Below are positions 2,139-26,410 of a stretch of DNA of 26,410 nt, piece after piece; the first letter of the stretch is position 1; the number at the start of each line of letters is the position of its first letter. A program made the translations under genes and the position numbers. The DNA comes from a virus. The notes under the pieces were generated by a model. It worked only from the letters and a program-made list of their open reading frames with translations, had not been told where the DNA came from and searched no databases. The stretch spans positions 1 to 26,410 of the IMG/VR virus record IMGVR_UViG_3300027861_003227. One strand, given 5' to 3'.

Positions 2139-4475
2139 CTAGAAACTTCCGCCATACTTGCTGAACTCGCTGGAATTGTAGACACGCCCAATCTCGCTGA
2201 ACCACCGGTCCCCGATCCTGTCCCACGAAAACCTAAGAGCAGACTGCCGTCCTGCGCCCCCAAGAGTTCTCCGAAGTTCAGCGTCCTCAATTAATTCGCA
2301 AATGTTCTCCGCTAGCGTGGACCCGTCTTTCTCTATGAGGCAGTTATGACGATGAACTCCATACTCATCGATCCCTCGATTGTCGGTAGTCGCCAGCGCC
2401 ACACCGGAAGACAGCGCCTCAAGACCAGGCAAACCAAAGCCCTGGTACTCGCTTGGCTCCACAACTATATCTATGGACCGCATTACCACAGCAACCTGAT
2501 CCTGACTCAGTGCCCCGTAATTTACATCTCCGAAAGTACAAGGCTCGCCGAACGTCTCCAAACTTAACCGCTTGCCGTATTTCTCACGCAGCCCCTCGTA
2601 AATCGCCTGTAAGCGCTTTCCGCCTCGTCTGGGAGTGCTGGGTCTATACATTCCCAAAACTCTTACCTGGGAAGGGTTCACTGGCTTGCTGGATGGGTGA
2701 AATCGCTCAACATCTACACCGACTGGAATATGGGTATAAGAATCTATGCCTAAATCAGACTTAGCCGTTCTGCCTACCCAGTCTGCATTTACAACTCGAT
2801 TTGGAATCGTCGGGTAAAGTTCTATGCTGGATTTACGGAGAGACGGCTTACCGCTTTTCTCTGTAAACCAGTCCTCCCTGTCTTGCCAGAATGCCATTGG
2901 CACGAATGACTCCTCACGATTAAGCATATCTCTAACCAACTCACCTGTGAACCAGTGAGTTGCGACAATGACCCCTTCTGCCGTATTTGGGTCTTTGCCG
3001 AGCCGCCTCATGCTGGTTGCGTCACGGTGAGGGTTTGGTCCAGCCAGCATTTTAAATGTATGCTCCTGCTTAATGCAGTGCTCCACGCTTGCATTGAGCC
3101 CCCGCTTCACAAGTTCATCGACCAAGCGAAGTACACAGTAGACGCCTCCATATGGTCCGATATTGAAAGCCACGAATCTAACTGGGCACCCGTCAGGTTT
3201 GCTTGTGAGGGCGACGCTTCGAAGAGGTCTACACTTTTGATGCCACGTCTTAATCTTGACTGCTTCCTTCCCGTACAACTCTCTCCATCGACTTATAAAG
3301 AGTTTTGCTCCAACCTCTTGCTGGTCGCTCCCAGTCTCATGAGTTCCGTGGCTTTCGTGATAGACGTAAGCATCATCAGCCACCGCGCATCTGCCGAACT
3401 TGCTTCGAACCCTTGCCCAAAGTTCGCACTCCTCTCCGTAACCATTCCCATAGATGTCTCCGTCAAATGGTCCGTGATCAATCCAGGCGGGCTTGTCGAT
3501 GAGCATGCACTGCCCAACATTTGTTACTGCGTCTGGATAGTTCGGTGGCATCAGGCTGGCGTATAGTGCCGCTTGTATATAATTAGTTCTGCCTGGCAAC
3601 CTTGGAAATCCCCAGGACTTTTCGTCAGCAAGAGGAAGGGATATCGCCGCCTGCTGGTTGCACATTGGATTGACTAACTGGGCACCAGTTCTAAGGTTGC
3701 ATCTGACCATCGCTGAAAGCCAGCCTCTGGTCACAAGCACATCTGAATTTACGATAACCACAAGATCACATCCGGCGGCAAATGCTGTATCTACTCCGCG
3801 ATTCACAGTTTTGAGGTATCCCATGTTCGGGTGAAAGATGTGCCTAAATGGAAAGGAAGAAATCCTTTCCTTGCTGTATTTGTCAGAGCCGTCATCCATC
3901 ACGAACACGTCTTCATTCATGAGCGGATAAATCGTGTTCTCCTCGATGCTCTTTAGGCACGGCACGAATCTGTCTGGCTTATTATAGACAGTTATGACAA
4001 CTCCAACTCTAGGCGCCGTCTTTGATATTGGCTCTACACTGGGCATCATTACCGGACCTGACTCGCTGCTCCATCCTCGCCAAGTTGACCGCTCCGAGAC
4101 CTTCTTGATCCAGATGGGGTCTGGCTTTTCATTGTCAGGAGTTAAGATGACGTCAGCATCTGACGCACTTTCAGCCATTTGTAGAAATGAAGAATCCCGA
4201 TAGGCTTCACTGTGGCACCAAAAGCGAACTTCACTTCTAACTGGATTTCTGGTTCTACGCCTGCTCATTGGGGAGATAAGTACGCTCAATCCAAACTCGC
4301 TTTCATCTAAGCCGAGCCGATTAAAGTGGACCGCATTGTCTAGGCAGCGCTTAGTTTTGATAGGAAAAGTAGTTGCAATATCGGCTCGGATATAATCGCC
4401 GACCGATAGAGCCTGAAGCCTCCCTGGGAGTTTTACCGGCTTCTTGATTTTTCTATAATAGTCCTCTACTGCCAC
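2139..4475 (-). CDS. Two-domain glycosyltransferase (GT2 fused to GT4-like)
   Basis: This is a large 778-residue enzyme that should transfer sugars from nucleotide-sugar donors to a glycan or protein. Residues 157-390 form a GT-A fold of the GT2 kind: VGVVITVYNK at the start, DDGS at 194-197 and the metal-binding NSDV at 243-246. After a linker, a GT-B fold of the GT4 kind begins with a glycine-rich GPYGGVY segment. It ends with YQGFGLPGLEALSSG, in which Gln replaces the usual first Glu of the EX7E motif. The first 150 residues are unrecognised. The GTG start overlaps the stop of the connector-like gene by 10 bases, so the two are translated together. Likely roles are virion glycosylation or alteration of host surface sugar. 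There is no signal peptide. Confidence 0.9.
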   Translation of the reverse strand: MAVEDYYRKIKKPVKLPGRLQALSVGDYIRADIATTFPIKTKRCLDNAVHFNRLGLDESEFGLSVLISPMSRRRTRNPVRSEVRFWCHSEAYRDSSFLQMAESASDADVILTPDNEKPDPIWIKKVSERSTWRGWSSESGPVMMPSVEPISKTAPRVGVVITVYNKPDRFVPCLKSIEENTIYPLMNEDVFVMDDGSDKYSKERISSFPFRHIFHPNMGYLKTVNRGVDTAFAAGCDLVVIVNSDVLVTRGWLSAMVRCNLRTGAQLVNPMCNQQAAISLPLADEKSWGFPRLPGRTNYIQAALYASLMPPNYPDAVTNVGQCMLIDKPAWIDHGPFDGDIYGNGYGEECELWARVRSKFGRCAVADDAYVYHESHGTHETGSDQQEVGAKLFISRWRELYGKEAVKIKTWHQKCRPLRSVALTSKPDGCPVRFVAFNIGPYGGVYCVLRLVDELVKRGLNASVEHCIKQEHTFKMLAGPNPHRDATSMRRLGKDPNTAEGVIVATHWFTGELVRDMLNREESFVPMAFWQDREDWFTEKSGKPSLRKSSIELYPTIPNRVVNADWVGRTAKSDLGIDSYTHIPVGVDVERFHPSSKPVNPSQVRVLGMYRPSTPRRGGKRLQAIYEGLREKYGKRLSLETFGEPCTFGDVNYGALSQDQVAVVMRSIDIVVEPSEYQGFGLPGLEALSSGVALATTDNRGIDEYGVHRHNCLIEKDGSTLAENICELIEDAELRRTLGGAGRQSALRFSWDRIGDRWFSEIGRVYNSSEFSKYGGSF

Positions 4476-9649: not shown

Positions 9650-9874
9650 ATGATTAAGGTAACATCAAACGCAATCTTGGAAGCACTCAGCGAAATCAAT
9701 ATCAAGGAGACGGCGGACCGGACCTCGATTAGAATGTGGATGGGTAACCCATACGGGTTCGACAAAGCCTTAAATGACGCCCTGTCTTCAGACCTGGTGA
9801 TCATGGAGACAGTTCATACAAGAGGCGGAGTTCGGGTCATGTATACACCCTGGTACAACTCACCGATTAATTAA
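9650..9874 (+). CDS. Unknown 74-residue protein in a repeat-flanked cassette
   Basis: I do not recognise this 74-residue protein. It is soluble, with an amphipathic helix in residues 5-20 (ILEALSEINI) and a C-terminal strand pair rich in Val, Met and Tyr. It could be a small helix-turn-helix fold, but no family motif is clear. The ATG at 9650 follows CAGGGAGACACGAA. The gene has its own strong promoter, and its stop codon ends at the start of the right-hand direct repeat. Promoter, gene and repeat thus form a compact module. It may be an accessory gene of the moron kind. Confidence 0.72.
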   Translation: MIKVTSNAILEALSEINIKETADRTSIRMWMGNPYGFDKALNDALSSDLVIMETVHTRGGVRVMYTPWYNSPIN

Positions 9875-9902
9875 AAAAAACGCACATTTCGCGGATGCAA
9901 TT
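9874..9902 (+). repeat. Direct repeat, right copy
   Basis: The seven or eight A residues and CGCACATTTCGCGGATGCAA plus TT repeat the sequence at 9538-9566 with two changes. The copies start 336 bp apart. The right copy begins at the stop codon of the cassette gene and is followed by the leader of the next gene (9942). Confidence 0.8.
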
Positions 9903-9941
9903 ATATGTAAGCAGTGGGCTTACCGAAAAACTGGAGACAGC

Positions 9942-11424: not shown

Positions 11425-11513
11425 TGGACATGTTGTCTATTCAGCTTCAAGTTCTCGGCGCCACCTTTTTAATCATATTAATGATCGCAGTCCTTAAAGG
11501 AGATGAGTTTTGA
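11424..11513 (+). CDS. 29-residue single-span membrane peptide
   Basis: A complete small gene lies between two genes and overlaps both: it starts in TAATG and ends in TTGA. The peptide begins MDMLSIQLQV, then has an unbroken hydrophobic run (GATFLIILMIAVL, about residues 12-24), and ends KGDEF. That is one membrane segment with a charged tail. It directly precedes the muramidase gene, so a role in lysis, such as a minimal holin or a release accessory, is possible. It is too short for homology-based proof, and it might exist mainly to couple translation to the TTG start downstream. Confidence 0.5.
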   Translation: MDMLSIQLQVLGATFLIILMIAVLKGDEF

Positions 11514-11971
11514 ATACAGCCTGCCTTGTCGCGCTTTGCTCCGCAGCGCTTCAACCCTATGCCGACACATATGGGAAAGACGGAGCATTCAAGTCACGCC
11601 ACAAAATCTGCATTGAGATAACAGTGGAAGCCCAAAGGCAAGGGGTGGACCCATTCATACTTGCTGCGGTAGGATACACAGAGTCTGGCTTTACTGATTC
11701 TGTCAACCAGAGTTCAGGCGCCGCTGGTCCCTTACAGGTAATGAAGCGGTTTTGGTGTAAGGATTCTAACTGCGATCTGATACATGCTGGCGTGCTAGCC
11801 TATCGGTCATTTAGTAATAATAAAACTATGATGGATGCACTCTGCCTCTATGGTAGTGGCTATCCATGCAACCGCTCGAAGGCTGGTACAAGATATGCAA
11901 AGAAAGTTCTGCGTAGCCTTGAGAGAATAACGCACGGATCAGAACTGGCGTGCGAAATAGACGGCTGCTAA
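11510..11971 (+). CDS. SLT-type muramidase (lytic transglycosylase-like)
   Basis: The product cleaves the glycan strand of peptidoglycan. AAVGYTESGF (52-61) contains the catalytic Glu, E58, in the ESGF motif. SSGAAGPLQVM (68-78) is the second conserved SLT motif. AYRSF and a late YAKKVL match the usual C-terminal motifs. The 153 residues are about the size of one SLT domain. The start is a TTG at 11510 with a strong ribosome site (AAGGAGATGAG) inside the small membrane-peptide gene. The N-terminus (ACLVALCSAALQPYA) is mildly hydrophobic, perhaps an export or signal-arrest segment. Several Cys pairs suggest disulfides and activity outside the cytoplasm. It could act at DNA entry or in lysis. 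Confidence 0.85.
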   Translation: MNTACLVALCSAALQPYADTYGKDGAFKSRHKICIEITVEAQRQGVDPFILAAVGYTESGFTDSVNQSSGAAGPLQVMKRFWCKDSNCDLIHAGVLAYRSFSNNKTMMDALCLYGSGYPCNRSKAGTRYAKKVLRSLERITHGSELACEIDGC

Positions 11972-11980
11972 GGAGATGAA

Positions 11981-12508
11981 ATGAGCAAGGGAAACTGGGA
12001 GGCCATCCATTCAAGCAAGCGTCATGATTGGCAAACTCCGAAAGAGTTATTTGCACGACTAGATAGAGAGTTCGGATTTACACTCGACGCCGCTGCGAGT
12101 TCAGAGAACGCTTTATGCGAAAGGTATCTTACTTCCGACGAAGACGCACTTGGACTGGAGCCAGGGAAATGGGCAAAACTTGCGAACTTCGGACCCATCT
12201 GGGTTAACCCTCCATATGGTCGAGACGTGATAAAATGGATCAGGAGAGGCATACGTGAAAGTCAGGAAGGCTCAAGAGTTGTAATGCTAACCTTTGCGTG
12301 CACCGAAACAAAATGGTTTAAGGAAGCGTGGGACTCTGCCACCGAGGTCAGATTCATTGTCGGAAGGTTAAAGTTCATAAATCCTCAGACGAAAGCAATC
12401 GGAGCATCCGCGCCGAAAGGCTCCTGTCTTTTAATTTTTGAACCTCATAGTCGGGAGAAGATTGCCCTTCAGAGGCTGCCCGTTGTGTCGCTTCTTCAGC
12501 TTGACTGA
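11981..12508 (+). CDS. dam: Phage Dam-type N6-adenine methyltransferase
   Basis: This is a 175-residue protein of the phage adenine methylase family (the Dam family, Pfam PF05869, recalled from memory). The features are WQTPKELF near residue 18, DAAAS at about 35-39, and the catalytic NPPYG near residue 70, where Asn replaces the Asp of DPPY. KGSCLLIF at the C-terminus is also typical. It methylates adenine in DNA using AdoMet. The ATG at 11981 has a perfect ribosome site (AAGGAGATGAA). It ends the rightward operon, and its last 134 bases overlap a leftward gene on the other strand. Confidence 0.9.
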   Translation: MSKGNWEAIHSSKRHDWQTPKELFARLDREFGFTLDAAASSENALCERYLTSDEDALGLEPGKWAKLANFGPIWVNPPYGRDVIKWIRRGIRESQEGSRVVMLTFACTETKWFKEAWDSATEVRFIVGRLKFINPQTKAIGASAPKGSCLLIFEPHSREKIALQRLPVVSLLQLD

Positions 12509-12642: not shown

Positions 12643-13680
12643 CTATTTTACCGTAGGTAAATCAAGCCAGGACATATTTTCAAGATACCAGTTCACTGTC
12701 CTTTTCAGACTTTCCTCAAATGACACTGGCGCCTCCCAACCCCACTGGGCGATCTTGAATCCGTCCAAGGCGTATCGCAGATCATGCCCAGGTCGAGAAC
12801 TGTGAGCATCCACCAACTTAAACTTCGCGTCCGTATTCATGATATCTGCAATCATATCCACAAGCTCAAGGTTGGAAATCTCCCTGTCTCCCACAACGTT
12901 AAGCCTTAGAGGTCGCTCATCATATGGCGGAACTCTTCCAGGCGCTGGATAGTTCGGGATCTCGGAAGACCTCTCAATTATTGCCAGGAGTGCATCAGCG
13001 TGATTCCTTGCGTGAAGATAGAACCTCGAACCAACAACCCCGTCCACCGAGTGAATTGGAATGACCTTTCCATCCCTTAGACTTCTAATAATCATTGGGA
13101 AGAATTTGTCAGGATGCTGCTTCTCACCGATGTTATTCATTGTATTGGTGATAACCACTGGCACTCCAAAAGTTCTCCAGTAGCTAATGGCGATCGCCTC
13201 CTGACACGCCTTCGATGCTGAATATGGGTTTGAGGGGATAATGGGATCCCACTCCTTGTGATGATAATCGTCAAATGCAGCGCCATAAACTTCGTCAGTG
13301 CTTATTTGTATAAATGACTTCAGCCCGCTTACAGATCTAGCCCATTCAAGCAAATTCAAAGTCACCTTAACATTGTTCTCAATAACTTCAGCCGGCTGAA
13401 TTATACTGCGGTCCACATTGCTATCTGCGGCAAAATGCACAACGTGTTCTACGTGTGCAAGCGCCTCCTGTGAAATCCTGCTCAATGGCGCAGTTAGATC
13501 ATGAGTGATAAATCTAACTCTCTCAGGAGTTTTCTTGTAATACTCGCTCTGACTTATGCGCTCTGGTATTCCGTCATGGCGCCAGCTACATATGCACACC
13601 ATTTCATGTGAAGTTGTGCTCAGAGCATGCTCAATAAAATGGCTGCCAATAAATCCGTCTCCGCCAGTAACTAAAATCAC
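12643..13680 (-). CDS. RmlB-like NAD-dependent nucleotide-sugar 4,6-dehydratase
   Basis: The protein is an extended short-chain dehydrogenase of 345 residues, a usual length for dTDP-glucose 4,6-dehydratase. TGGDGFIG (5-12) binds NAD. STDEVYG (127-133) holds the Thr-Asp-Glu that marks dehydratases as opposed to epimerases. YSASK (153-157) is the catalytic Tyr-Lys pair. The likely reaction is NDP-glucose to NDP-4-keto-6-deoxyglucose, the first step to rhamnose and other deoxy sugars. No RmlA, RmlC or RmlD is in the window, so the pathway must use host enzymes or genes elsewhere. The start is GTG at 13680 with a strong site (GGAGGCGTAC). Confidence 0.9.
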   Translation of the reverse strand: MILVTGGDGFIGSHFIEHALSTTSHEMVCICSWRHDGIPERISQSEYYKKTPERVRFITHDLTAPLSRISQEALAHVEHVVHFAADSNVDRSIIQPAEVIENNVKVTLNLLEWARSVSGLKSFIQISTDEVYGAAFDDYHHKEWDPIIPSNPYSASKACQEAIAISYWRTFGVPVVITNTMNNIGEKQHPDKFFPMIIRSLRDGKVIPIHSVDGVVGSRFYLHARNHADALLAIIERSSEIPNYPAPGRVPPYDERPLRLNVVGDREISNLELVDMIADIMNTDAKFKLVDAHSSRPGHDLRYALDGFKIAQWGWEAPVSFEESLKRTVNWYLENMSWLDLPTVK

Positions 13681-13827: not shown

Positions 13828-14121
13828 ATGACCCAAGAACAGGTTCTCAAAGGAATTATTTGGCTTGTGCCAGTAATCTTCGGCGCAGGCGGAGTCTACA
13901 CTCAAACCCAGTCTACCAAGTCACAATTAAAATCAGTTGAGGCATCGGTGAAAAGTCTCGAAGGGTCGTTGATTGTTCACGAAAAGAAGGCACAGCATGA
14001 AGCCGGTGAAATCGAAGTTCAATACCTCAAGACCAATCAGTCCAAAATGATGAAGCGTCAGAATAGAATAATTGAGAGCCTTGGAGCAATATGCCAAGCT
14101 ACAAATGCCCGCTGCCGCTAA
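13828..14121 (+). CDS. Small membrane protein with coiled coil (holin- or spanin-like)
   Basis: The product is 97 residues. Residues 8-26 (GIIWLVPVIFGAGGVY) form one membrane helix close to the N-terminus. A polar region with heptad-like pattern (about 30-85) ends in a short Cys-containing tail (ICQATNARC). This layout fits a type II membrane protein such as an inner-membrane spanin subunit or an XhlA-like lysis accessory. The ATG at 13828 has a GGAAGAATTTCA leader. It is alone on the plus strand inside the leftward late module, and its stop overlaps the end of the sulfotransferase gene by four bases. Lysis function is inferred from shape and from the CHAP endolysin nearby. Confidence 0.7.
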   Translation: MTQEQVLKGIIWLVPVIFGAGGVYTQTQSTKSQLKSVEASVKSLEGSLIVHEKKAQHEAGEIEVQYLKTNQSKMMKRQNRIIESLGAICQATNARCR

Positions 14122-14663
14122 GAATAGCCGAACCTTCTAAAGTCATGCTTGTACCACCGCCGAACTTTAGTTAGCCCAACTCTTCCCTTTAGATCGTGCT
14201 GTGATCCGCCGGAGTTCATCCGCTGAATCTTTACGCTCGGCAATATGAAACCAAACGCTCTTAGATACTTTTCCAAATCGGGAAGTTCGGTCTCGTATTT
14301 AAAGATGAGCGCATGTTCCGGCACAAACTCTGCCTGCGGTCGAAAGTGGCGCTCCTCTACTTGAGGGGGTTGACGCATTCCGCGAATCTGCTTCTTCATG
14401 TCTGCCGCGTCTATGCTCCGGTCCTCAAACCTCATCGCAGAAAGAAACCTTTCGACCGGCTCCCGCACTACTGCCACGCAGGGAATCTCGGAGCCAAAAA
14501 CCTTGCGAGTCTCTTCCCAAGTTGCATGAGGATGAGTTCCGTGTCTTAGCCTATAATCGACATCACAACCACTCTGCACCATCGCCTGGACGAATGAGCG
14601 CCCCGCAGTTCTGGGGACGTGGCTGAAAAAGAATTTAATATTTCCAGAACCGATTACTGGCAT
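14118..14663 (-). CDS. Sulfotransferase (PAPS-dependent family)
   Basis: FSHVPRTAGRSF (13-24) corresponds to the 5'-phosphosulfate-binding loop (HIPKTGGTS in many relatives), with Arg replacing the usual Lys. VAVVREPVERFLSAM (63-77) corresponds to the 3'-phosphate-binding motif (VRDPVERFLSAY). Family members transfer sulfate from PAPS to hydroxyl groups of sugars or proteins. The 181-residue length is short for the family but both cofactor motifs are present. It sits just downstream of the CHAP endolysin gene (6-base gap) in the leftward late module and upstream of the RmlB-like gene. The ribosome site is poor (GGGGGA far from ATG), so it may depend on coupling. Confidence 0.85.
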   Translation of the reverse strand: MPVIGSGNIKFFFSHVPRTAGRSFVQAMVQSGCDVDYRLRHGTHPHATWEETRKVFGSEIPCVAVVREPVERFLSAMRFEDRSIDAADMKKQIRGMRQPPQVEERHFRPQAEFVPEHALIFKYETELPDLEKYLRAFGFILPSVKIQRMNSGGSQHDLKGRVGLTKVRRWYKHDFRRFGYS

Positions 14664-14669
14664 AAGGAA

Positions 14670-15434
14670 TCAATCCCCCTCAAATGGAGACAGCTTAGAG
14701 CGTTTCTTTTTTCCCCGCTTTAATTTTGGTCCCGTCTCCACGGTGGACCCCTCGGCGCCCTCGTCTGTCTTCACATGACTGGCAAGTCGACCAAACCCTT
14801 CGAGTCGAGTTTCGTTTTCTAAATCGTACTGGAAGCGTCTTACCTTGCTGGGAAAAGTTCCAACATTCCCCTCTATGGTGAAAAATAAGTTACCCTCAAC
14901 TCGCTCGACCAGTCCGACATGACCCTGCCAGCTTTTTGTGCCATCGTCATTCAGCGCTCCACGGTCCCAGCATACGACATCGCCGACTTCGGGAGTTTGA
15001 CTCTTGATCTGCATATTATTGTAGAGCGCCTTCGCCCCAAAACTCAAAGCTATAGGCAGCCCTTCCCCAACTTTCTCTGCACCCAAATTCAGGCAGTTGG
15101 AGACAAAGGCGGCGCACCAGGCGCCGTCGTCATCATTGTTCCCATCCCATTTCAGACCAAGCAAATTCTCTACATACGGACCTGAGTTATTTCCGCCCAC
15201 TTCGCCCTTGCCGACGTCTTCTGCCGCCACCTCAAGAGCGGCTCTTAATATTGGATGACAATCAACCCCTTCAATCTCGTCCTCTCGATCATTTAAAAGC
15301 GCCTGAATCGTGTCTGGTCCAATTAGCCCGTCCGCCACCAGCCCATGAGTTGACTGCCAAGCTCTTGCTAATTTTTGAAGCATCCACTCGTTAACATTAC
15401 CTGCTGCCACCTGGGACTTATTGTATTCTTTCAT
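14670..15434 (-). CDS. Endolysin: peptidoglycan-binding domain plus CHAP hydrolase
   Basis: Residues 10-50 resemble a peptidoglycan-binding type 1 domain (LARAWQSTHGLVADGLIGP). Residues about 85-220 form a CHAP-type cysteine peptidase: C106 in DGAWCAAFVS, H171 in WQGHVGLVE and the acidic/amide partner in FTIEGN (about 187-189). CHAP enzymes act as peptidoglycan amidases or endopeptidases. The last 20 residues are very basic (KLKRGKKKRSK), which may help it bind the envelope. No signal peptide is seen, so export would need a holin. The ATG at 15434 has GAGGTAAAT as ribosome site, and it follows the tail hub-like gene by seven bases. It could instead be a tail-associated hydrolase. Confidence 0.88.
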   Translation of the reverse strand: MKEYNKSQVAAGNVNEWMLQKLARAWQSTHGLVADGLIGPDTIQALLNDREDEIEGVDCHPILRAALEVAAEDVGKGEVGGNNSGPYVENLLGLKWDGNNDDDGAWCAAFVSNCLNLGAEKVGEGLPIALSFGAKALYNNMQIKSQTPEVGDVVCWDRGALNDDGTKSWQGHVGLVERVEGNLFFTIEGNVGTFPSKVRRFQYDLENETRLEGFGRLASHVKTDEGAEGSTVETGPKLKRGKKKRSKLSPFEGD

Positions 15435-23267: not shown

Positions 23268-23303
23268 GCCCCTATATTACCCATCCTCATAAAAACATCA
23301 ATG

Positions 23304-24572
23304 TTACTCGACGAACTTTTGGTAGGCACGCCTGAAGCTCATCAAAAAGCTGTCGGGTAAATTATGTCGGTTCAGGACAACATTCAGGCGACACTCCACA
23401 TCGCCTGCGCCTTCCGTCCATGCGTCCTCTTGATACTCGATTCTCATAAATGCGCTTGCGTTATGCTCGACTGCACGACTTTCTCGAATCTGCCCAGTTT
23501 CATTCAATTGCGTGAGCGCAAGAATCGGAACTTTATTTGTCACCGCTATCGCTACAAGAGTTTCACTTACTTGCGCCACCTCACGCTCCCGACTATGCCC
23601 GCCCTCATGTCTAAGAAGCTGCATGTAATCAATAACCACAAAATCAAGTTCATCCGCTAATTTCATCTGCCTGATAATTGTGGCCAATTGAAATGTGCTT
23701 AACCCCGCCTGATTCAAAATCTTAATCCGATGAGCGTAGCCTTTCATGATTTTCGCTCCCTCCGTTAGCCGATCTAACTGCCAATCCTCAAGCATTCCAT
23801 TCTGAATAAGGTTTGGACTAATATCACTCTCGGCGCTCAAGATTCTTCGCATAAGAGTTTTGGCGTTCATTTCGAGGCTGACATAGAGTACACGCTTTCC
23901 ACTGTAAGCCGCATTCCTTGCAAGGTTGCAGCCCATCACAGTCTTTCCTCGCTTAGTCCCAGCCCCAAGCATATAAAGGTTTTCGTCCTGAAATCCGTTT
24001 AAGATTCGGTCCAAGTTGGCAAATCCCGTAGGGATCCCGATTGGCTTGGCTCTTTCTTCCGGCGACTTTTTAAAGTTTACTTCGCACTCACCAATTACCT
24101 CCCTGAGACCCTCAAGACCTGTACTCATACACTCGTCCGGTCTAACCTCATTGAGCGCAAGGATTCTCCCGATTGCGGTTTGCCTTGCTTCGTTTGCATT
24201 GGGCGCCATCTGCGCCTCCGCCTTTGCCGTATCAATCTGCCTTAAAATGTCCCGATGTATCGCTGCCTCTTGGAGCATGTCGCAAAGTTTAGCAAACCAC
24301 GGACCACCCTGCTCCCCCCTTTCAACTCGCTCGAAAAGACTTTCTATCCCCTCAGGGTTTCGGACATTAGACTGAAGCCACTCGAAGACATTGACTGGAT
24401 CAATGTCGACGGACTTTGAAGTTAGTTCCCGAATGGCAAGGTGGATATTAGACGATCGCTCGTCAGTAAAGCAGTCAGGGGTCAATGACAGAAATGGAGT
24501 TAAGTCACCCGATGTAAACGCCTGCGCGATTACTCGATTTTCATACTCAAACTGATTTACTATTCCGCTCAA
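23304..24572 (-). CDS. dnaB: DnaB-type replicative helicase
   Basis: This protein unwinds DNA ahead of the replication fork as a hexamer. Residue numbers count from an ATG at 24587. Residues 10-110 resemble the DnaB N-terminal domain. From 187 the RecA-like core follows: GFANLDRILNGF, Walker A GAGTKRGKT (208-216), the VSLEM motif (236-240), Walker B VVIDYMQLL (317-325) and a late LTQLNE with the DNA-binding loop. The better start is TTG at 24572 (422 residues), because AGGAGG lies five bases before it and a promoter -10 lies just upstream. The ATG at 24587 has no ribosome site. It heads the leftward operon that continues into terS. Confidence 0.93.
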   Translation of the reverse strand: MSGIVNQFEYENRVIAQAFTSGDLTPFLSLTPDCFTDERSSNIHLAIRELTSKSVDIDPVNVFEWLQSNVRNPEGIESLFERVERGEQGGPWFAKLCDMLQEAAIHRDILRQIDTAKAEAQMAPNANEARQTAIGRILALNEVRPDECMSTGLEGLREVIGECEVNFKKSPEERAKPIGIPTGFANLDRILNGFQDENLYMLGAGTKRGKTVMGCNLARNAAYSGKRVLYVSLEMNAKTLMRRILSAESDISPNLIQNGMLEDWQLDRLTEGAKIMKGYAHRIKILNQAGLSTFQLATIIRQMKLADELDFVVIDYMQLLRHEGGHSREREVAQVSETLVAIAVTNKVPILALTQLNETGQIRESRAVEHNASAFMRIEYQEDAWTEGAGDVECRLNVVLNRHNLPDSFLMSFRRAYQKFVE

Positions 24573-24587
24573 TTGGTCCTCCTGCAT

Positions 24588-24758
24588 TAGGTGCTCTGGA
24601 TTTATACACTAAGACTAAATAAAATAAAACACTTTTAAAACGAATAAATTGCTTTTAAATAAAGTAAATCCATGCTAAAGATTCTTTACAGTACAAAGAA
24701 AAGTACTTACTTTTTAAACCCTTACAGGGTTTTAATTAATAACTGTATAGGAGGTCTT
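24588..24758. promoter_or_regulatory. Divergent control region: helicase/packaging vs recombination genes
   Basis: This 171-base AT-rich region holds signals for both directions. Rightward, TTTACA (24685-24690) and TACTTT (24708-24713) are 17 bp apart, and the spacer is filled by an inverted repeat AGTAC-N8-GTACT (24690-24707). AAACCCT-N3-AGGGTTT (24716-24732) is a second inverted repeat just before the ribosome site. Leftward, TATAAA (minus strand of 24601-24606) is a candidate -10 with a weak -35. CTTTTAAA occurs at 24632 and 24652, 20 bp apart. Confidence 0.6.
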
Positions 24759-25028
24759 ATGGATCCAGTAGAACAGAGGATAAAGATCAGGATTGCTTCC
24801 CTTGGGTATCGAGACATTAAAACTCTCCACAATGATCTGACTGAAAACCTTGCTGATTATGGAAGGAATTACGACTGGTGGTTGAGGCTTAACTCCCATT
24901 CAAAGGCTTCAGCGATTTCGGAGGCTGCTGGGTATTTAAAGACCAGCGTGACGGTGCTGCTTGGAGAGCAGGACAACAAGTTGCTTTCGGAGTCCAAGAT
25001 GGGTCGAATTGATTTGATGGAGGGATAA
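24759..25028 (+). CDS. Helix-turn-helix regulator (Cro/CI-like)
   Basis: The start is ATG at 24759 with a strong site (AGGAGGTCTT); an upstream in-frame ATG at 24672 is not needed. The 89-residue product contains a helix-turn-helix-like region at about 48-72: HSKASAISEAAGYLKTSVTVLL, here read as two helices around a turn (KASAISEAAGY and KTSVTVLLG). This resembles Cro/C1-type DNA-binding domains. It lies directly after a region with inverted repeats and opposite the helicase/terminase operon, so it may control the switch between the two directions. One base separates it from the exonuclease gene. Confidence 0.6.
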   Translation: MDPVEQRIKIRIASLGYRDIKTLHNDLTENLADYGRNYDWWLRLNSHSKASAISEAAGYLKTSVTVLLGEQDNKLLSESKMGRIDLMEG

Positions 25029-25029
25029 G

Positions 25030-26079
25030 TTGAGCCAAGCAAGCAAACAAGCACCCCCGAAGGATAGCATAGGCGGAACTGCCGCCTGCGCAATATTAGG
25101 GCTCAGTTCGTACAATGGACCCTTCTCCGTCTGGTCCAAAATCAGGAAGGCGTTGAGTGGAACACTGGAGGAGTCGCCAATTTTAGATGGACCGCTCCTC
25201 CGTGGGATTATAAGTGAAGACCCTCTGCTTGAATCATATAGTGAGATATTCAAATCAGAGACCGGACTTCATATGGTCGAACTGCCTCCAGAGCATAGCG
25301 TAATCCGGCATCCTGATTTTAGCTTTATTCATGGAACCCCTGATCGCCTGCTTATGAATGACGAGGGGGAGTTGGTGGGAGTTTTAGAGTTTAAGACTTT
25401 TGATAATTCTTCCGGTGGATTTAATTGGAGACGAGCGGACTACTGGTCACAGCTAACTCACTACTCCTGGCTATACGAGAAGGTTAGCGGCAAGGCTGCA
25501 TTAAGAAATTTTCTCATGGTCGCATCCGCAGGTTTTGGCGCTTGGTCGTCACTGGTCGACTGTCTTCAGTCTGGCGACCCATACGGGAGGGCATCTGCCA
25601 GGATCTCGATAGACTGGAGGGAAATGTCCAACCCCGCTGACACGGTGGATAAGTACGATAAGGTTCACGCTCCAAAGTTAATAGATTTCTGGAAAAGCTA
25701 TATTGAGGGCGAGAGTGTGCCACCGGTCGACCATACCGAATCATGCAGGGACAGTTTCCCAATCAATAAAGACGGACCGGTGAAGTTAACTGATTCATCG
25801 TCGAAAGAGTTTGTCCGGCTTGTAAAGTTAAGACTAGAGCACAAGCTAAAGGCGGACGACGCAACCACAGAAAGAAAGAGAGTTGAGAATCGAATCATCC
25901 AGCTTCTCGACGGACACGGAGCCGCTGAAAATGATAACTTCAAAGTTAGCTATAAAACGAGCAAAGGTCGAAAGGGATTTAAGCAATCCCTCTTCAAGAA
26001 AGACTATCCAAATATACACGCTTCCTATATAAAGGAAGGAGCGCCAAGCAAGCGCCTAACAATAACGGAGAAGACATGA
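25030..26079 (+). CDS. YqaJ-type exonuclease (lambda Exo-like, PD-(D/E)XK)
   Basis: The product should degrade one strand of double-stranded DNA ends to make 3' overhangs for recombination. SIGGTAACAILGLSSY (13-28) is the conserved N-terminal motif of the YqaJ family. HGTPDRL (101-107) gives the catalytic Asp, and VLEFKT (118-123) gives the Glu-x-Lys of the PD-(D/E)XK fold. Residues 260-300 form a charged helix. The C-terminus is basic. The start is TTG at 25030, well placed after GGAGGG and one base after the regulator stop. Its stop overlaps the start of the annealing-protein gene in ATGA. Confidence 0.9.
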   Translation: MSQASKQAPPKDSIGGTAACAILGLSSYNGPFSVWSKIRKALSGTLEESPILDGPLLRGIISEDPLLESYSEIFKSETGLHMVELPPEHSVIRHPDFSFIHGTPDRLLMNDEGELVGVLEFKTFDNSSGGFNWRRADYWSQLTHYSWLYEKVSGKAALRNFLMVASAGFGAWSSLVDCLQSGDPYGRASARISIDWREMSNPADTVDKYDKVHAPKLIDFWKSYIEGESVPPVDHTESCRDSFPINKDGPVKLTDSSSKEFVRLVKLRLEHKLKADDATTERKRVENRIIQLLDGHGAAENDNFKVSYKTSKGRKGFKQSLFKKDYPNIHASYIKEGAPSKRLTITEKT

Positions 26080-26410
26080 GTTTAGCCAAAGAAGTGCATG
26101 ACACTTTTGAGAAAGTTAACCTATTCAAGAATGGTCTGGTGGAGTGGAAAAATATCGGAAGAACTGACTTAGCTTACCTGAAGTGGGCAGTAGCGTGGAA
26201 AGTTTTGAAAGAACACTTCCCTGACAGTCATCGAGAATACACGAAGCATGAGCGACCCGATAACCGTCCTGGGCTTATAGATGTCCTTTATTATACGGAC
26301 GGAAGCGCCTCAGTTGAATGCACAGTGGAAATAAGAAAGGGCGAGGAGGTCTATCGTCAATCCACCTGGCGACCGATTCTGAACCACTCCAATAAGACAG
26401 TGGTCAATCC
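26076..26410 (+). CDS. Sak3-like single-strand annealing protein, 5' part (DUF1071-like)
   Basis: The gene starts with ATGA overlapping the exonuclease stop and runs off the window after 111 full codons. The segment TDLAYLKWAVAWKVLKEHFPD (residues about 30-50) matches in pattern the start of DUF1071/Sak3 annealing proteins, which typically read L-x-YL-x-WA-x-AW-x-x-x-K. A strand containing SVECTVEIR follows. Such proteins pair complementary single strands produced by an exonuclease. The neighbouring YqaJ gene makes a two-component recombinase of the lambda Red kind likely. The C-terminus is missing, so length cannot be judged. Confidence 0.75.
   Translation, partial: MSLAKEVHDTFEKVNLFKNGLVEWKNIGRTDLAYLKWAVAWKVLKEHFPDSHREYTKHERPDNRPGLIDVLYYTDGSASVECTVEIRKGEEVYRQSTWRPILNHSNKTVVN

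Follow-up and report, generated by a model that had tools for sequence, protein, structure and literature searches.

A genetic switch of the lambda type requires two opposed repressors together with repeated copies of one operator. At the OR/PR-cro region of phage lambda (NC_001416), a small protein heads an operon leading away from the intergenic region, the opposite gene encodes a repressor, and three copies of one operator are present, of which OR1 and OR2 are annotated at -35 and -59 relative to the cro start codon and which share 10, 14, and 10 of 17 bases between pairs. A different arrangement is found in Paracoccus phage vB_PkoS_Pkon1 (MK291442), in which genes annotated as CI-like and Cro-like face each other, with the helicase gene downstream of cro on the same strand. 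CtrA-controlled divergent regions of phages of Alphaproteobacteria are also located between divergently transcribed blocks (PMC9437464).

The DNA analyzed here, referred to as the window, is a virus record of 26,410 bases that covers part of a tailed phage genome. For the terminase large subunit, identity to the best-listed named phages, which are Aeromonas phages followed by Roseobacter phages CRP-901 and CRP-902, is approximately 41%, and the DNA between positions 23300 and 26410 had no match in the phage collection. An AT-rich region separates a leftward helicase and packaging block from a rightward recombination block, as the sequence-only reading had proposed and as a GC scan and the gene models confirmed. 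The leftward block consists of the genes for the DnaB helicase, a small-subunit-like protein, the terminase large subunit, and the portal, the small terminase subunit being named from its position and the annotation of homologues and not via a model match. The rightward block consists of an 89-residue small protein, a YqaJ exonuclease, and a Sak annealing protein. The features of the locus are as follows, with dyad centers counted from the start codon of the small protein.

23304-24587, minus strand: replicative helicase of the DnaB type, heading the leftward block (PF03796, 2.7e-43; PHROG 19, 4.4e-62)
24588-24758 (24573-24758 if the helicase starts at TTG), no strand: AT-rich divergent intergenic region, containing the lowest-GC 171-bp stretch of the window
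24601-24628, minus strand: weak candidate for a leftward promoter, TTTATT-16-TATAAA, ranking third among the reverse sites of the gap with a score of 5.8
24632-24659 (24632-24639 and 24652-24659), no strand: direct repeats CTTTTAAA, expected in 13-16% of shuffles
24685-24713, plus strand: candidate rightward promoter, TTTACA-17-TACTTT, best forward matrix score of the gap, 7.9
24690-24707, no strand: dyad 1, AGTAC-N8-GTACT, center at -60, its position matched by a dyad in the relatives
24699-24714, no strand: overlapping dyad, AAAAGTA-CT-TACTTTT, center at -52, without a positional match in the relatives
24716-24732, no strand: dyad 2, AAACCCT-TAC-AGGGTTT, center at -34.5, the preferred operator candidate; TCATGCATGA lies at -34.0 in the relatives
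24759-25028, plus strand: 89-residue small protein, a possible diverged Cro/CI-type helix-turn-helix regulator (37%-identical homologues at the same place in seven contigs, weak profile match, no family match)
25030-26079, plus strand: YqaJ/RecE-like recombination exonuclease (PF09588, 5.5e-6; PHROG 434, 1.5e-30)
26076-26408, plus strand: Sak-type single-strand annealing protein, truncated by the end of the window (PF06378, 4.7e-11)

Two starts, ATG 24587 and TTG 24572, are candidates for the helicase. The TTG codon may be the actual start, because a strong ribosome-binding-like site, AGGAGG (24577-24582), sits between the two codons, inside the ATG-started frame and five bases before the TTG. 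In the relative L013, GGGAGG lies five bases before the TTG of the helicase. Against the TTG start, the ATG starts give MQED and MHED in the window/L013 pair. The dyad distances are independent of this choice. Elsewhere in the window, minus-strand genes resembling a glycosyltransferase (two domain types), a GDP-mannose dehydratase-like epimerase, and a sulfotransferase are located at 2139-4475, 12643-13680, and 14118-14663, and two DNA methylase genes, of the N6/N4 and Dam types, at 1383-2012 and 11981-12508. A CHAP-domain endolysin-like gene (14670-15434) and a transglycosylase-like gene (11510-11971) lie on opposite strands.

The sequence-only reading had interpreted the gap as a genetic switch with an operator set. 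As in lambda, the small protein is the first in an early-type operon leading away from the gap, and dyads lie near -35 and -60, close to OR1 and OR2. In a true lysis-lysogeny switch, the small protein would be Cro-like and its opponent would be encoded in a part of the genome outside the window, which is considered extremely unlikely. The gene opposite the small protein is the helicase and not a repressor, and a search of six records, possibly partial, turned up neither a second repressor nor an integrase. In contrast to the lambda operators, the two dyads are unlike, with 7 of 17 aligned bases shared, and are not copies of one operator; the direct repeats are ordinary in shuffled sequence and were not seen when searched for in the gap of the relatives. 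Neither the switch nor the operator set was thus borne out, and a lambda-type switch was rejected as the main reading for its helicase neighbor and its lack of a repeated operator. The remark that no integrase was in view did hold, as the phage integrase model had no match in the window. Models for HTH_3, integrase (PF00589), resolvase (PF00239), and S24 matched none of six records, comprising the window and five relatives that are possibly fragments and include the 46.5-kb relative G003. Of 61 PHROG families listed across 57 ORFs from G003, the first 25 include ParB-like proteins but no integrase or repressor; this ORF set omits two ORFs straddling piece boundaries and one of 65 residues, and an ORF antisense to the small protein was exchanged for the small protein. 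In a further difference from lambda, no lysogeny genes were found in these six records, and the fold of the small protein is a predicted one. A lysogeny role for the gap is unlikely.

With vB_PkoS_Pkon1 the window shares a terminase of 37% identity and the occurrence of a Cro-like gene (a possible one in the window), the DnaB helicase, TerS, and TerL in one stretch, but in the window it is the helicase itself that is divergent, and no CI was seen. The possibility of a CtrA-controlled promoter was discarded, as no TTAA-N7-TTAA site was present in the window or in the gap of the relative L094.

The closest arrangements were found in uncultured relatives. A search with a terminase alignment yielded, among 80 kept loci, one contig of 69% identity, L013, whose layout is that of the window on the other strand, and alignments of the small protein and the helicase recovered L013 plus six further contigs. 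In all seven IMG/VR contigs, including 3300031851_000044, 3300048433_000904, and 3300003494_000228, the helicase and a homologous small protein flank the gap, and in those read in detail the exonuclease and then Sak follow downstream of the small protein. The order of helicase on the opposite strand, gap, small protein, exonuclease, and Sak is thus kept, and the small protein was present in all eight records searched, the window and its seven relatives. Its gene is the first of a candidate operon and adjoins the divergent gap in the window as well as in the relatives. The start of the exonuclease gene adjoins the stop codon of the small protein gene in the window, with an overlap of the two in L013, and the genes are presumably carried on one transcript.

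The conservation of gene order is accompanied by considerable divergence in sequence. The window and its relatives differ to the extent that the small proteins are 37% identical (34% by BLAST, E 9e-13, in a single comparison) and the helicases 40%, while the gap of the relatives is shorter, approximately 124 bp compared with 186 bp in the window, and the two gap sequences gave no convincing alignment. An alignment of 2750 bases around the gap divides the seven relatives into three haplotypes of 88-92% identity (four identical contigs, two identical contigs, and one alone), which are counted as one lineage. No relative emerged when viral contigs were scanned with the single sequences of the small protein and the exonuclease of the window, and none was found among the genome contigs scanned with the small-protein alignment. 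Distant relatives of the exonuclease (L189-L191) have a different neighborhood.

The gap is probably the start of both blocks, and the small protein would turn down its own operon there, a reading that, taken as a whole, is on balance probable, if narrowly so. The gap would act as a two-way promoter region, with leftward transcription leading to the DnaB helicase and the packaging genes and rightward transcription to the small protein, the YqaJ exonuclease, and the Sak annealing protein, as well as to SSB and more, judging by the relatives. The small protein is most likely of the Cro/CI helix-turn-helix type, though strongly diverged. It would bind at its own promoter, to dyad 2 and possibly also to dyad 1, and repress its own operon once enough of it had been made. 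It may also influence the leftward promoter. Gene control of this kind is routine in phages, and the locus is not a demonstrated switch between life cycles.

The repeats of the gap were compared with chance expectation in 5000 dinucleotide shuffles of its 171 bp. A dyad with arms of at least 7 and at least 3 G/C per arm occurred in 3.4% of the shuffles with loops up to 20 and in 1.6% with loops up to 8. Arms of at least 5 with a minimum of 2 G/C and loops up to 12 gave two or more dyads in 13%, and a direct repeat of 8 bases no more than 25 bp apart was present in 16%, or 13% if G or C was required. Dyad 2, found at 24716-24732 as had been described, is thus mildly unusual and the sole repeat class to be so, the other two classes being expected at 13-16%. 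The direct repeats are likewise present, at 24632 and 24652 and hence 20 bp, or two helical turns, apart. Dyad 1 had been said to fill the 17-bp promoter spacer exactly; it is present but is 18 bp long and includes the last base of the -35 hexamer. The third dyad, AAAAGTA-CT-TACTTTT, which was absent from the sequence-only reading, overlaps dyad 1 and has longer arms.

The proposed rightward promoter fared similarly. TTTACA at 24685 and TACTTT are present with a 17-bp spacing, but in a matrix scan the score of 7.9 was equaled or exceeded by 70% of 300 gap sequences shuffled by mononucleotide, and a consensus promoter scanner gave no site between 24000 and 26410. Because the repeats and the promoter fall mostly within shuffle expectation, the gap sequence by itself does not carry the regulatory claim. 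The same result favors a plain divergent promoter region, in which the dyads would be chance features of AT-rich DNA and the small protein a helper of recombination or replication, for instance a Gam-like or helicase-loader-like protein, that does not regulate the gap. The place of its gene in the recombination operon, beside the exonuclease and Sak and opposite the helicase, would suit such a helper. This explanation is regarded as rather unlikely.

In all three haplotypes of the relatives, dyads are centered at -60.0 (ATAAA-N6-TTTAT), -58.0, and -34.0 (the palindrome TCATGCATGA), with one extra dyad each in L093 and L097. The window has ten dyads in total, among them those at -60.0, -52.0, and -34.5. 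Two of the three dyads of L094 are therefore matched in the window to within half a base. For this comparison the window gap was taken as 24573-24758, and in 3000 trials at least two matched centers occurred in 0.3% when only the window was shuffled and in 0.7% when both gaps were shuffled; with dyads of at least 2 G/C per arm, the coincidence occurred in 0.4% of trials with both gaps shuffled. At these first settings, shuffled gaps thus reproduce the positional match in approximately 0.3-1% of trials, a figure that depends on the settings. When arms, loops, and tolerance were varied for L094 after the first result (400 trials each), P lay between 0 and 0.05 for arms of 5 and between 0.005 and 0.2 for arms of 4, so that the positions recur at both arm lengths, contrary to the expectation for a plain promoter gap. 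With arms of 6, no matching dyad was found in any of the nine settings for L094, which favors the plain promoter gap. For L093 and L097, with arms of 5 only, P was 0 to 0.02.

The coincidence is suggestive of a shared operator placement and not proof of it, because the dyad settings had not been set in advance and the three haplotypes represent one lineage. That the distance to the start codon is kept while the sequence differs is what would be expected if operator and regulator had diverged together. Variation among the relatives is limited to 3 of the 90 positions upstream of the start codon, compared with mostly 8-14 per 50 on the helicase side between -1350 and -201, with 7 and 6 in the next two blocks. 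However, this quiet stretch is not specific to the gap, because variation is similarly low in the adjoining genes on the side of the small protein, at 2-5 per 50 in the first 550 bases.

Of the two dyads, dyad 2 is preferred as the operator, being the less frequent one in shuffled sequence and having, at the corresponding position in the relatives, a counterpart that contains G/C. The dissimilar sequences of dyads 1 and 2 speak against binding of both by one protein, and the small protein may have its site in only one of them. In the window, no further copy was found of dyad 1 with up to 2 mismatches or of dyad 2 with up to 3, while dyad 2 with 4 mismatches occurs at sixteen places and the overlapping third dyad with 3 mismatches at three other places. 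In G003, TCATGCATGA and ATAAA-N6-TTTAT occur once each, both in the gap. A phage-wide regulon was rejected on these grounds, and autoregulation fits better, because the dyads are local and single-copy in the records examined. Separately, an AT-only 11-mer, TTTTAATTAAT, is found at 24730 and, in inverted orientation, at 9866, within a further divergent gap (9805-9941).

Dyad 2 could alternatively act as RNA, forming a leader hairpin before the ribosome site of the small protein that tunes translation or ends transcription. The 17-base dyad alone, AAACCCUUACAGGGUUU, folds at -6.3 kcal/mol and is equaled by only 3 of 200 shuffles, but a longer leader is no more stable than its shuffles, of which 71 of 200 and 106 of 200 fold equally well. 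Moreover, the counterpart TCATGCATGA of the relatives leaves no room for a loop, an Rfam search of the whole window gave no match, and a terminator scan lists no site in the gap. An RNA hairpin was rejected on this basis and is hardly probable at all.

Autorepression by a DNA-binding protein depends on the nature of the small protein, which had been called Cro/CI-like from its sequence. No support for this came from Pfam, PHROGs, NCBIfam, or PDB sequences, while a weak profile-profile match appeared once the relatives were added. Specifically, the window protein had no match in Pfam at E up to 10 and nothing meaningful in PHROGs, NCBIfam, or PDB sequences, the PDB matches being lysozyme C and a dehydrogenase at E 0.3-1.5. 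The small proteins of the relatives gave none over the cut-off with family models, and the HTH_3 model found nothing in the six records at E up to 1. Among phages, the window protein had no match at E up to 1, and the L013 homologue at E up to 10 gave partial matches in five records at E 2 or worse. The best of these five, in Pseudomonas phage Bjorn, falls on the strand opposite the gene annotated at that place, within a run of hypothetical and structural genes. The absence of a family match for the small protein favors the plain promoter gap, but the Pfam and PHROGs scans gave no match to a Gam or helicase-loader family either, which argues against the helper that this explanation invokes.

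For profile comparison, a Cro/CI model was assembled from 22 Cro/CI-type domains gathered from phage records through HTH_3. A three-member profile of the small protein family aligned with these domains in register, over 28-32 columns locally and 70 globally, with a probability of 30-31% in local and 16% in global mode. None of the column shuffles reached this score (0/60 and 0/100), which also argues against a plain promoter gap. When proteins were compared singly in a set of 42, comprising 40 small ORFs of G003 and two homologues, the L013 homologue ranked first with a probability of 42.6%, but the G003 terminase small subunit was level with it (42.5%); the protein of the window came seventh, at 0.9%. 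With a plain Cro/CI HMM, the window protein scored no better than shuffles, 319 of 500 being as high, whereas the proteins of the two relatives did better, with 13 of 500 shuffles as high in each case.

Structure prediction from the single sequence of the window protein gave a poor model (pLDDT 51). The model of the L013 homologue, built from three sequences (pLDDT 70), has predicted helices at 2-15, 21-31, 37-40, 48-59, 63-67, and 71-80, an order compatible with Cro/CI. With this model, the five best Foldseek hits against the PDB were SinR (four) and a 434 repressor variant, at E of at least 0.5 and TM approximately 0.3 and none of them significant, and many helix-turn-helix names were returned from BFVD at E 0.33 or worse. 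VIA-align gave no confirmation, with three chains at Z of at least 2 (up to 2.5) and neither of the two entries shown being Cro/CI. Taken together, the small protein is quite probably a diverged helix-turn-helix protein.

The position of the gap next to the helicase gene also raised the possibility of a replication origin, in which the repeats would be initiator sites and the AT-rich DNA an unwinding element for the adjoining helicase. The lowest-GC 171-bp stretch of the window adjoins the DnaB gene, and the cumulative GC skew does reach a minimum near 24.5 kb. However, this minimum is explained by gene direction, because the sign of the skew follows the gene strand in all nine gene blocks of the window, and in G003 the main skew turns likewise lie near changes of gene direction. 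The skew was for this reason rejected as evidence for an origin. Apart from the single 8-bp direct repeat, which is of a kind expected in shuffles and unseen in the relatives, no iteron array was seen in the gap. The suggestion of an origin thus found no independent support and is very unlikely to be correct.

A bolder form of the autorepression reading, distinctly unlikely at present, is that the small protein belongs to a new, diverged family of Cro-like regulators, found by the search only in one uncultured phage clade and lacking a partner repressor, which would balance replication and packaging against recombination during lytic growth, the position of its operator being kept and the sequence replaced as regulator and DNA co-diverged. 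Among the literature matches listed, nothing evidently concerned this clade or a Cro-like gene divergent from a helicase gene. If true, the locus would offer a testable case in which operator position is kept while the operator sequence and the regulator diverge, the latter to 37% identity, and an example of one-protein control of recombination versus replication and packaging genes in a lineage for which the DNA search of the phage collection gave no match. Under the plain reading, the locus would be nothing more than a usual phage promoter region and would warn against taking dyads in AT-rich DNA for switches.

The relatives also carry a gene for an FtsZ/tubulin-family protein, which lies further along the strand of the recombination operon. 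It was found in four of the six records and not in the window or G005, and the window ends before that place. In G003 it is located at L180:1672-2688 on the minus strand (PF00091, 1.1e-17), with FtsZ as the best PDB match (7.7e-16). To our knowledge, such a gene is unusual on a phage contig of approximately 46 kb. Beside it on the opposite strand, at L180:1075-1665 (plus strand), lies a ParB-like gene (PF02195, 1.8e-9).
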